Source of the DNA: a virus
IMG/VR virus record: IMGVR_UViG_3300009177_000096
Span: 1 to 29,256 of that record
Reading direction: 5' to 3' (one strand)
Length of the DNA stretch: 29,256 bases
Part shown: one piece after another, positions 17,936 through 24,580 of the stretch
Numbering within the stretch: the first letter of the stretch is position 1
Layout: the number at the start of each line of letters is the position of its first letter
Translations under genes and position numbers: made by a program
The notes under the pieces: generated by a model
Seen by the model: the letters and a program-made list of their open reading frames with translations, nothing else
The model's database searches: none
Told to the model about the DNA's origin: nothing

Positions 17936-17957
17936 TGGGGTGGCTACCGGGGTGGCT
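17936..17957. repeat. Left copy of attP direct repeat (putative integrase arm site)
   Basis: This 22-base unit, whose core is GGGGTGGCTACCGG followed by a second GTGGCT, is repeated in the same orientation at 18196-18217 with one mismatch. Each unit contains two GTGGCT half-units. The pair lies on both sides of the tRNA-derived core, as integrase or accessory-factor arm sites do. A relic of an integrase 3' end is an alternative, since the minus strand here reads ATPVATP. Confidence 0.55.
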
Positions 17958-18093
17958 GTAGCAAAATGGCGACATGCGGATTTACTAGGAAAAACGTGGT
18001 GTTTTCAATTGCTCACCAACGAGGGCCAAAACAGGAAGTTGCCGTTTTTCTTAATGTTTTGGCTCATTATCAGCAGTTCCTGATGATTGGCTG

Positions 18094-18142
18094 GTGGTCT
18101 GCAAAACCTCCACCCCCGGTTCAAATCCGGGCGGCGCCTCCA
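18094..18142 (+). other. attP core: 3' part of a tRNA-Cys(GCA) gene
   Basis: On the plus strand there is an anticodon arm with loop CTGCAAA (18099-18105, anticodon GCA, four of five stem pairs). Next comes a T-arm with stem CCCGG/CCGGG around loop TTCAAAT (18115-18131), then an acceptor 3' strand CGGCGCC, discriminator T and CCA (18132-18142). No matching 5' acceptor GGCGCCG or D-arm precedes it, so this is a fragment and not a working tRNA gene. Tyrosine integrases often insert into tRNA 3' ends, with the phage copy restoring the gene. The flanking AT-richer 17976-18093 has no gene and is probably arm/accessory-protein DNA; a weak leftward promoter (TTGAAA, 15 bases, TAGTAA) may lie at 17982-18008. 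Confidence 0.8.
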
Positions 18143-19293
18143 AATTTCCTAACCTTTTTCAGTGAAGCCGGACCATCGGTGCCCGTATGAGCCTCTGGGG
18201 TGGCTACCGGTGTGGCTACGGAGGCCGGAACCAACCCCTCGAGACGGGCCGCCGCCTCGGTCAGATCGCTAGCACTCACGATGTTGTAGCGCGCGAAGAC
18301 GGACCGGGTCAGGTGCCCGGCGAGCTTCATCGCATGCGCCTCTGGCACCCCGGCCCGCGTCATGTTCCGGATCGCCGTGCGCCGAAAGTCGTGCGGGATC
18401 CGCCCCGGGCACTGGGCCGCCTGGCAGGCCGCCTTCCAGGCCTTGTTGAAGCGCAGAATCGGCTTCGGATACTTCCGTCCGCCCCGCCCCTTGGCGACCA
18501 TCCGGAAGAAGACCCAGGGGCAGACGTATCCCGCCGCGACGGCGGCCGTGCGGGCGGTCAGGCGATCGAGCAGCAAGGCCCGGAGATCGGCCGTCAGCGG
18601 AAACACGCGCGGCTCGCCGTTCTTCGTCTCGCCGGGATCGAGTCGGATCTCATTGGCCTCGAAGTCGACGTGCCGCCACTCGCGCGTCAGCACTTCGCTG
18701 TCAATGCGCCAGCCGGTGAGATAGGCAAAGGTCACGACCGGCTGTAATGCCGTGGGGAGGTGCGCGCGCATGCTTTCGAAGGCGGCGCGTTCAAAGAATC
18801 CCGCCCGGGCATTCCGTTCGCGCAACCGGGGAATGTGCGGCTGATAGAGCAGGCGCCCGCTCTGGACGCACAGCGTGAACATGCGGCGCAGGATGGCGAG
18901 CTCCCGATTGACGAGCGCCGCTGACGCCCCGGCGGTGCGTCTGTCGGACGTGTAGAGGGCGATCCGGTCGGGCGTGATCTCTGCCATGCGCCATCCGCCG
19001 AAGGCCGGTGTGAGGTGCAGTCGGATGCGGATCTGTTGCTTGCCGAGCGACGAATACTCGTTATTGCGGTAGTCGGCCTCGAGGAGCTCGACGGCCTCCT
19101 CGAATGTGATTTTGCCGACGCCCGCCGCCACAGGCAGACCGCGGTCTTTGTCGGTTTCCTTCGCGTCGGCCATCTTCTGGGCCTTCCGACGGTCAGACGT
19201 GCCGGTCGATTCGCGCACCCGCGTGCCGCGGCCGGCGACGTAATACTGCATCATGTAGATCTGCTTGCCGGGCGTCCGGTAGATCGAAGCCAC
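18121..19293 (-). CDS. int: Tyrosine integrase
   Basis: This 390-aa site-specific recombinase should insert and excise the phage. Candidate catalytic residues are R196 (TGWRIDSEV), K224 (TKNGEPRV), H301 and R304 (IPHDFRRTA), H327 (LAGH) and nucleophile Y336 (FARYNI). The N-terminal arm-binding domain (YRTPGKQIYMMQYYVAGRGTRVRESTGT) and a core-binding SAM-like domain (62-155) are in place. Start GTG 19293 has a strong AGGAGGA site. The 54 residues after Y336 are unusual. The segment VATPVATP is encoded by the right arm repeat, and the final GGAARI and stop are encoded by the tRNA-derived core. The gene is the last of the leftward lysogeny operon. Confidence 0.95.
   Translation of the reverse strand: MASIYRTPGKQIYMMQYYVAGRGTRVRESTGTSDRRKAQKMADAKETDKDRGLPVAAGVGKITFEEAVELLEADYRNNEYSSLGKQQIRIRLHLTPAFGGWRMAEITPDRIALYTSDRRTAGASAALVNRELAILRRMFTLCVQSGRLLYQPHIPRLRERNARAGFFERAAFESMRAHLPTALQPVVTFAYLTGWRIDSEVLTREWRHVDFEANEIRLDPGETKNGEPRVFPLTADLRALLLDRLTARTAAVAAGYVCPWVFFRMVAKGRGGRKYPKPILRFNKAWKAACQAAQCPGRIPHDFRRTAIRNMTRAGVPEAHAMKLAGHLTRSVFARYNIVSASDLTEAAARLEGLVPASVATPVATPEAHTGTDGPASLKKVRKFGGAARI
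18196..18217. repeat. Right copy of attP direct repeat, inside int
   Basis: This unit matches 17936-17957 at 21 of 22 bases in the same orientation and lies in the C-terminal coding part of int. Left and right copies are exactly 260 bases apart and flank the tRNA-Cys core. They are candidate arm-type binding sites for Int. The copy also encodes the ATPVATP protein segment. Confidence 0.55.
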
Positions 19294-20003: not shown

Positions 20004-20465
20004 CTATCGACGCTTCTTCGCCTCTTCGGCGCGTTGGGCCGCTTCCTGCGCGGCGAGCTGCAGCATCAATGTTTCTTGGCGGTGGGCATTGAGCCGCTCG
20101 ATGCGATCGAGCAAGGCCACACCGGCGTCGATCTCTTGCGTCAGGAGCAAGCGTTCGATGCGCAGTCGCGTGCGGGTGGGTGCCAGCGTATACGCGCGTG
20201 CGATCTTTAGCGCCTCGTCGTGTAAGCCCTCCAGGCGCGGATCATCGGCGCTGATGGGCTCGTCGGGACGCTCGAGCATGGCCGTCGTGGTGCCCAGGGC
20301 CTCGACGATGCGCTCATACTCTCCGCGCCGCGTGCCTCGGCGCGCGGTCTCCAGGCCACTGATCGTATTCGGCGCGACGTGTGCGAGCGGTGCCAACTGC
20401 TTTTGCGTCAACTTGAGTTTTTGACGCAGCGCACGCACCCTGGCGCCAATCACGGCCGGATCCAT
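20004..20465 (-). CDS. CI-like lysogeny repressor, short form without a peptidase domain
   Basis: Residues 1-60 are a helix-turn-helix XRE/Cro-CI domain: VIGARVRALRQKLKLTQKQLAPLAHVAPNTISGLE (HTH at about 19-41). The C-terminal part is a charged helical region, ending QEAAQRAEEAKKRR, that probably mediates dimerisation. At 153 aa it is shorter than lambda CI and has no LexA-like S24 peptidase, so induction would differ from RecA-driven cleavage. The gene is divergent from the Cro-like gene across a promoter region. I chose ATG 20465; ATG 20516 or TTG 20522 would add 17-19 residues. Likely it represses the rightward promoter. Confidence 0.75.
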   Translation of the reverse strand: MDPAVIGARVRALRQKLKLTQKQLAPLAHVAPNTISGLETARRGTRRGEYERIVEALGTTTAMLERPDEPISADDPRLEGLHDEALKIARAYTLAPTRTRLRIERLLLTQEIDAGVALLDRIERLNAHRQETLMLQLAAQEAAQRAEEAKKRR

Positions 20466-20539
20466 GCCGTTATATTTCAGATCGGCCGGCTCTGATGCAA
20501 CAGCAAGTCTTAGCATTCGCAAGTAGTTACGATAGATTC

Positions 20540-22638: not shown

Positions 22639-23297
22639 GCGGCCTGACGTTCGACGCGACCCTGCACCGCTACACGCTCGACGACGTCGTCGTGCCGTCG
22701 GTCACGGGCATCCTGAAGGCGTCGGGGTTGATCGACTTCTCGGGTATCCCTGACTCGATCCTTGAGGCGGCGCGCGTGCGCGGCACGACGGTGCACCAGG
22801 CAATCGCCTACTTCAACGACGGCGACCTCGACCTCGAGCAGTTCCAGATCGACTTTCCGCATTACGTGGGCTACGTCGACGCCTGGCTGTCGTTCGTCGC
22901 GCAACGGAATTTCCTGCCGGTGCTCAACGAACATCGCGTGGCGTCGCGGCGGCATCAGGTCGCCGGCACGCTCGACTGCCTGGGCCTGCTCGACGGCCAG
23001 GCCGTGTTGTTGGACTTCGCCACGGGCAATCCCGCCGACGTGTGCAAGTGGCTGCAGACCGCGGCCTATGAAGTGCTCGCCCGCGAATGGGCCAGCGACG
23101 ATCCGGCGCTCGCGGCCTTCTTCGCCGCCCATGCGTTCGTCAAGCGGTATGCGGTCGCGCTTCGCAAGGACGGCACCTTTGCGCTCGAGGCCTACGCCTC
23201 GCCCGGGGACGCGCGGGAGTTTCTGGCGCTCGTGACGGCGCGACAGATCGTCACCAAATACCGCGGGGACCGGGTTGCCCTCGTGGAGGTCGCGTGA
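22635..23297 (+). CDS. RecB-like PD-(D/E)XK nuclease with a changed active site
   Basis: The 220-aa protein starts at GTG 22635 (GTGA overlap). FDATLHRYTLDDVVVPSVTGIL (start), E99 (NEH), GTLD (D114) and LLDFATG (D127) then WLQTAAYEVLA (Q141...Y145) are the motifs of Cas4/RecB-type phage exonucleases. The expected D-x-K triad is D127-F-A129, with Ala where the catalytic Lys should be. The codon is GCC, not one change from a Lys codon. The protein may be inactive, bind DNA without cutting, or use another base. It lies beside the recombination-like gene and the methyltransferase. Confidence 0.7.
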   Translation: MSGLTFDATLHRYTLDDVVVPSVTGILKASGLIDFSGIPDSILEAARVRGTTVHQAIAYFNDGDLDLEQFQIDFPHYVGYVDAWLSFVAQRNFLPVLNEHRVASRRHQVAGTLDCLGLLDGQAVLLDFATGNPADVCKWLQTAAYEVLAREWASDDPALAAFFAAHAFVKRYAVALRKDGTFALEAYASPGDAREFLALVTARQIVTKYRGDRVALVEVA

Positions 23298-24580
23298 ACG
23301 GAGCTGTCGACGTGCTGCGGTTGCCAGTTGCAGCGATCGTCTTCCGAGAGGATCTCTATCCCCGGATCGAAAGCAAGACCAGCGCAGTCCTAGTCCAAAA
23401 GTATGCCGAGGACGTCGACGTGCTACCACCGATCGAGGTCAACCAAGACCACGAGCTGATCGATGGTTGGCATCGATGGACCGCTCACAAAAAGGTGAAG
23501 GCCGACATGATCGGCGTGACGATCACGAGCACCTCGAGCGATCTGGAATTACTCAAGCTCGCGGCCCGCCGCAACAACAATCACGGCCACCAGTTGTCGC
23601 AAGACGACAAACGCGCGCTGGCGCGGCGCCTGTATCAGGGGGCTGCTGACAAAGACCGCGCCTCGCTAAAAAAGGAGCTCGAGGGGCTGCTGTCGGTTTC
23701 AGAACGCACCGTGCGGGAGTGGCTGTCGCGGATCGACAAGGATGCGAAAGGGGCGCGTGATCGGCGCATCTTCGATCTCTGGCTCGCTTGCTGGACGCAT
23801 GAAGAGATTGCCGATGAAATCGGGATCGAAAAACAACGCGTCGGAGAGGTGATTTGTCCGGATCCGGCAAATCGGCCAAAAGCGGACAAAGCCGCCGCCG
23901 ATCACGCGACCGACTTCGAGCCACCGATCTACAACATCTGGAAGCAGCAGGAGAAAACTGGTGGCAGCGGCCACTTCGGCAACTCCGAAGTGCGCTGGCT
24001 CGACAACCTGCTCTACCTCTACACGCAGCCGTTCGACATCGTGGTCGACCCGTTCGCCGGCGGTGGCTCGACGATCGATCTGTGTCGGCGTCGCCTGCGG
24101 CGCTACTTCGTCAGTGACCGCGTGCCGATCGTCGAACGCGAGAAGGAGATCCGTCGGCACGACCTCGTCACCGACGGCTTGCCAAAGCCGCCGAACTGGA
24201 AGGACGTGCGGCTCGTGTATCTCGATCCGCCCTACTGGAAGCAGGCCGCCGGCAAATACAGCACCGACGCGAGCGACCTGGCGAACATGTCGCTCGACGA
24301 TTTCAACGCCTCGTTGTCAGGCCTCATTGCCGCATTCGGCAAGAAGCTGACCGAGGGACACATCGCGCTGATCATCCAGCCGACGCAGTGGAACGCGCCC
24401 GAGCACGCGTTTACCGACCACGTCGGCGACATGCTCCGACGCGTGAAGTTGCCGGTTGCGATGCGCTACTCGGTGCCCTACGAGTCGCAGCAGTGCAACG
24501 CGCAAATGGTCGAGTGGGCGAAAGCGTCGAAGACGACCCTGGTGCTGACACGCGAAATCGTGGTCTGGAAGGTCGCATGA
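23294..24580 (+). CDS. ParB-N domain, helix-turn-helix and DNA methyltransferase fusion
   Basis: This 428-aa protein starts at GTG 23294 (GTGA overlap). Residues 1-90 are a ParB/Srx-like domain with LPPIEVNQDHELIDGWHRW (the G-x-H-R loop, residues 58-61). Residues 130-190 hold two helix-turn-helix-like segments (SVSERTVREWLSRI and HEEIADEIGIEKQRV). The rest is an adenine- or cytosine-N4-type methyltransferase: DPFAGGGST (AdoMet-binding, 252-260) and DPPY (311-314). The FxGxG motif precedes DPPY by about 50 residues, the alpha/gamma order. It may mark phage DNA against restriction or regulate gene use. No restriction partner is visible. Confidence 0.8.
   Translation: MNGAVDVLRLPVAAIVFREDLYPRIESKTSAVLVQKYAEDVDVLPPIEVNQDHELIDGWHRWTAHKKVKADMIGVTITSTSSDLELLKLAARRNNNHGHQLSQDDKRALARRLYQGAADKDRASLKKELEGLLSVSERTVREWLSRIDKDAKGARDRRIFDLWLACWTHEEIADEIGIEKQRVGEVICPDPANRPKADKAAADHATDFEPPIYNIWKQQEKTGGSGHFGNSEVRWLDNLLYLYTQPFDIVVDPFAGGGSTIDLCRRRLRRYFVSDRVPIVEREKEIRRHDLVTDGLPKPPNWKDVRLVYLDPPYWKQAAGKYSTDASDLANMSLDDFNASLSGLIAAFGKKLTEGHIALIIQPTQWNAPEHAFTDHVGDMLRRVKLPVAMRYSVPYESQQCNAQMVEWAKASKTTLVLTREIVVWKVA

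Follow-up and report, generated by a model that had tools for sequence, protein, structure and literature searches.

An integrase stop codon inside a tRNA-Cys-derived attachment core of an uncultivated phage, a probable by-product of a P22-like attP–int arrangement

Introduction

Integrases whose genes run into or through the phage attachment site (attP) are already known from the Myxococcus phage Mx8 and from SSV-type systems of archaea, and the authors of Islander make provision for integrases that reach across attP, naming both systems (PMC4383910). In Mx8 (AF396866), the int frame overlaps a tRNA-derived core on the opposite strand, the tRNA 3′ part lying 368 nt inside the int ORF of that record; int runs through the core and its 3′ end is replaced on integration (PMC6070905). 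The attP of SSV-type suicidal integrases likewise overlaps the integrase gene, which integration splits (PMC8371274, PMC4383910). In mycobacteriophages with integration-dependent immunity, attP is located in the repressor gene, where the region of the stop codon is important, and the repressor becomes shorter on integration (PMC9934374). Phage P22 (tRNA-Thr target; AF217253) combines a convergent int that ends close to a tRNA 3′ core with paired arm repeats on both sides (TGGGACA in two pairs, one near −127 and one near +48 within int). Convergent orientation of tRNA and int is one of four catalogued arrangements, and two convergent E. coli pairs, argU-intD and thrW-intH, were not self-regulated when tested (PMC2951348). 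Beyond these systems, our literature search on int/attP overlap found little.

Here we analyze a virus record (the window, meaning its whole 29,256 bases) in which int terminates within such a core. It resembles P22 in its convergent int, tRNA 3′ core, nearby int end and paired arm repeats with the P′ pair inside int, but host, tRNA and repeat sequence differ, and the P22 int stop falls 14 nt outside the tRNA part whereas int of the window ends 22 nt inside it. Its int stops within the core and is unchanged by in silico integration, unlike int of Mx8; it is neither split as in SSV-type systems nor shortened as the mycobacteriophage repressor is. The argU-intD pair of DLP12 shares the orientation and the position of the integrase near the tRNA 3′ end (PMC2951348), but overlap into the tRNA, present in the window, is not described there for pairs of this type. 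We assign a probability of roughly 0.9 to the reading that this is an attP–int module of the P22 kind in which the overlap results incidentally from packing and does not sense integration.

Results

The integrase gene ends in a T-loop read from the opposite strand. The window (66% G+C) is an entire virus record in which no end repeats were found, and comparison with annotated phages at the DNA and protein levels returned no close relative. Its left part carries terminase, capsid/protease and portal genes (Pfam and PHROG matches). The int product scores above the cut-off against Pfam Phage_integrase PF00589 (E 3.3e-14) and matches the PHROG integrase (E 3.9e-46), the catalytic R, H-x-x-R and Y positions are invariant across 11 relatives, and the C-terminus of the protein reads KKVRKFGGAARI. 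The TGA stop of int (18121-18123) is read from the strand opposite TCA of the T-loop TTCAAAT, and the six codons before it (18124-18141, reading I R A A G G in window order) fall entirely within the tRNA part, giving the tail GGAARI; int thus reaches 22 nt into the core, stops at core offset 19-21 and does not pass through it. A sequence-only reading had already described both the GGAARI ending and the origin of the stop in the T-loop, and the ORF and codon table agree with it on each. Elsewhere in the window, a helix-turn-helix protein encoded on the int strand (20004-20522, −) is a candidate phage repressor, and a protein encoded at 23087-24580 (+) matches ParB-like N-terminal and DNA methyltransferase models. 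Coordinates of the region are collected in Table 1.

Table 1. Features of the attP–int region, in window coordinates
Feature	Position	Strand	Basis or remark
P-arm direct-repeat pair TGGGGTGGCTACCGGGGTGGCT, putative arm-type integrase sites	17936-17957	+	22-nt repeat, 95% identical to 18196-18217
Left-arm element ATTTACTAGGAAAAACG	17980-17996	+	similar in several relatives; roughly complementary to 18143-18159
attP core, tRNA-Cys(GCA) 3′ part, anticodon loop (CTGCAAA) to CCA	18099-18142	+	exact 44-nt matches; ARAGORN
Anticodon loop CTGCAAA, likely 7-nt overlap region for strand exchange	18099-18105	+	phage conservation starts abruptly here
T-loop TTCAAAT	18120-18126	+	complement gives int TGA stop; direct reading, codon table
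Tyrosine integrase gene int	18121-19293	−	ORF 390 aa; last six codons and stop within core
A+T-rich stretch AATTTCCTAACCTTTTT beside core	18143-18159	+	alignment: similar in relatives; encodes KKVRK and part of F
P′-arm direct-repeat pair TGGGGTGGCTACCGGTGTGGCT, within int	18196-18217	+	encodes int tail residues VATPVATP

The core derives from a bacterial tRNA-Cys gene. Exact copies of the shared 44-nt block (CTGCAAA...CTCCA, discriminator U) are present in 10 other viral contigs and 20 genome contigs, the latter carrying with few exceptions the label Acidobacteria or Terriglobia, so that a chance match can be dismissed. A related integrase (49–71% identity, tblastn) adjoins the core in 9/10 of the viral contigs; the remaining contig, L006, breaks off 36 nt away from the core and is too short to show one. 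ARAGORN found no tRNA in the window and none around the core, and because the tRNA 5′ half is absent the block represents attP rather than an integrated junction. Judged by these matches, it is a genuine attP. The tRNA-Cys-derived core proposed earlier thus holds; of the block then drawn, 18094-18142, the tRNA-Cys 3′ part with its exact core stands, while the left edge does not, as 18094-18095 includes one mismatch (GTGGT versus host GAGGT) and unbroken identity with host tRNA-Cys begins at 18096. The sharp onset of phage conservation at the first core base suggests that strand exchange takes place in the anticodon loop, in which case the host anticodon stem would likely supply the flanking inverted half-sites of the putative overlap region. 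A search of the core region against Rfam returned only a sub-threshold match to mascRNA, an identity that we reject as a reflection of tRNA-like 3′ shape and not meaningful. In L002, which carries an integrase of 57% identity, no recognisable tRNA part lies near int.

Host loci show the traces expected of integration at tRNA-Cys. An intact tRNA-Cys(GCA) was found by ARAGORN in 16/20 genome contigs with the 44-mer, usually beside tRNA-Gly(GCC), and in the other loci (4/20) only the 3′ part was present, without the 5′ half. Integrase remnants adjoin tRNA-Cys in L019, L027 and L030, and L019 holds an intact tRNA-Cys together with a displaced 3′ part, with remnants between and beside both copies; displaced 3′ fragments and integrase remnants beside tRNA-Cys are what integration there would be expected to leave. 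The check proposed earlier, a host tRNA-Cys matching the core beside integrated relatives, returned matching tRNA-Cys genes with related integrases or remnants adjoining. An intact lysogen with the exact T-loop-stop arrangement at tRNA-Cys was not found, the nearest integrated case being L088, at tRNA-Met. Integrases of the same family as that of the window occur in 51/193 genomes of the host class. Since the exact core lies in acidobacterial tRNA-Cys genes, the hosts are very probably Acidobacteria; the phage would be temperate and tailed, with soil hosts in the class of Luteitalea relatives.

Several loci deserve separate mention. The two tRNA-Cys cores of L019 (5043-7112) lie 2 kb apart with integrase remnants, which suggests tandem decayed elements. 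L015 and L030 are labelled Bifidobacterium breve and Acidimicrobiia, yet carry the acidobacterial tRNA-Gly/tRNA-Cys pair, and are probably mislabelled or contaminant contigs. The related integrases of L044, L045 and L049 stop roughly 1 kb away from an intact tRNA-Cys with a single-base difference in its core.

Integration leaves the integrase unchanged. One functional reading of the overlap is a sensor of integration state, in which integration alters the integrase C-terminus and thereby its activity in the lysogen; the precedent is Mx8, where attP lies within int and integration gives the gene a new 3′ end (review PMC6070905). Using host sites from six genomes, we built junctions between the host tRNA 5′ side and the phage for all 45 crossover points that the core allows. 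Every attL so obtained (45/45 points, all six host sites) carried the int ORF of attP without change, because int enters the core from one side and stops within the part common to host and phage, and the gene is left undisrupted, unlike the SSV-type suicidal integrases. A C-terminus that is the same at every crossover point cannot report integration, and if crossover occurs in the anticodon loop the stop stays with int on the phage side. An Mx8-like C-terminal switch, and with it the tie between C-terminus and integration state that the sequence-only reading had entertained, is thus ruled out in silico for the window, and the chance that the overlap acts as such a sensor is practically nil. 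ARAGORN recovered tRNA-Cys in attL and none in attR of the in silico products.

One host locus has a different geometry. In L080 (G124:C27), an integrase frame reads on the opposite strand through tRNA-Cys (1168-1241) and tRNA-Gly (1036-1110). It is the only candidate here for an integration-dependent C-terminus and is probably a degraded copy; of the integrase model, the frame spans just the C-terminal half.

The T-loop stop is labile among relatives. Among the eight scorable convergent phages with the core, int ends at the T-loop TGA in 3/8 (the window, L004 and L011), while in 5/8 (L005, L008, L009, L010 and L012) it stops 15–23 nt before the core, in frames that differ relative to it. In an integrase tree of 60 sequences, the three phages with the T-loop stop do not group together: L011 pairs with L012, whose int ends at +23 nt, and L004 with L008, whose int ends at +15 nt. 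More broadly, a tRNA 3′ part lies on the opposite strand near int at 29/73 distinct integrase ends (viral and host), including tRNAs for Leu, Cys, Met, Phe and others; most of these ends fall 3–107 nt short of the tRNA part, and the integrase of L088 ends at the T-loop TGA of its tRNA-Met. Nor is the T-loop the universal source of a stop that had been supposed, since TGA arises only with A at tRNA position 57, which in a small and biased sample of 36 distinct tRNAs from the loci at hand was A in 10, G in 24 and unscored in two.

These patterns bear on whether selection maintains the GGAARI tail encoded by the core because it serves the integrase. The tail is identical in the window, L004 and L011, but that identity is dictated by the tRNA sequence, and the tail is absent from five relatives of the same clade; in L008, the sister of L004, int uses a different frame and stops 15 nt ahead of the core. 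Given this scatter on the tree and these differences in frame, a conserved functional tail is unsupported, and we hold it to be extremely improbable. As these comparisons read, the T-loop stop is instead a chance backstop in one reading frame. Three of eight relatives retain the overlap, which may therefore bring a mild benefit.

The arm repeats keep their position and change their sequence. In every phage long enough for the test, the repeat pair on the left of the core recurs on the right. Across 8/8 convergent phages, the P pair starts at −151 to −165 and the P′ pair at +53 to +65, and the repeat score was matched by 0/60 shuffles in each of the eight. The repeats themselves differ (GTGGCTAC in the window; TGTGGCT in L004 and L008; GTGCTACCC in L005, L009 and L010; GGTGCCC in L012; ACTGGCT in L011), so that the P-arm pair of the window has positional counterparts in relatives with a different repeat sequence. 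Fixed position combined with phage-specific sequence gives these pairs the look of arm-type integrase sites, a role that we infer. Between arms and core, two roughly inverted A+T-rich elements (18143-18159 and 17980-17996) may be sites for Int, Xis or host factors.

Where int is complete in a convergent phage, its frame contains the right pair, which writes the tail of the protein. Because the P′-arm repeats encode the tail, the tail peptide of each phage tracks its own repeat sequence. A variable integrase tail encoded by P′-arm repeats is seen at 18160-18230 of the window and in L004-L012. Two further phages, L007 and L013, have the same core and a related integrase, but int lies across the core on the tRNA strand, with repeat pairs at −114 to −116 and +56. 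The stop of int in L007, a TAA, sits in an arm repeat, CGCTAACC.

Convergent transcription could couple int expression to integration. In a lysogen, transcription of tRNA-Gly/tRNA-Cys could run antisense into int, or int mRNA into tRNA-Cys, and the overlap would then reduce int expression in the integrated state alone. The two genes do converge, and a pattern scan (weak evidence) found no terminator-like site between the tRNA end and int. However, the argument applies equally to the relatives that stop 15–23 nt outside the core, which makes any such coupling independent of the overlap, and the two convergent E. coli pairs showed no self-regulation (PMC2951348), in a test whose scope did not extend to antisense transcription. 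The earlier suggestion that int expression depends on integration state is thus unsupported, and we consider coupling through the overlap very unlikely. A more elaborate form is, in our judgment, highly improbable: in lysogens, transcripts of host tRNA-Cys entering the overlapping 3′ end of int, or int transcripts entering tRNA-Cys, would adjust tRNA processing or the expression of int, with the six residues dictated by the tRNA adapted to this role.

Discussion

We favor a P22-like module. Its attP carries a 44-bp core that derives from the 3′ portion of the host tRNA-Cys gene, with pairs of putative arm-type integrase sites on either side. Strand exchange would most likely occur in the anticodon loop, the phage copy of the 3′ part restoring a working tRNA-Cys and leaving int convergent with and abutting it. 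As in P22, the int 3′ end overlaps the P′ arm; in the window and two relatives the frame continues for 22 nt inside the core and meets its first stop at the T-loop TGA. The overlap would then be a by-product of packing int against attP, presumably with no regulatory function. As far as these sequences can tell, the overlap does not tie the integrase protein to integration state, and such a tie is unsupported for int expression.

In convergent members of this group, the variable integrase tail is largely dictated by attP, first by the arm repeats and then by the tRNA sequence, and conservation of such a tail should therefore not be read as protein function. With the core placed in tRNA-Cys, a clade of uncultivated phages gains an insertion site and a host group, very probably the Acidobacteria.
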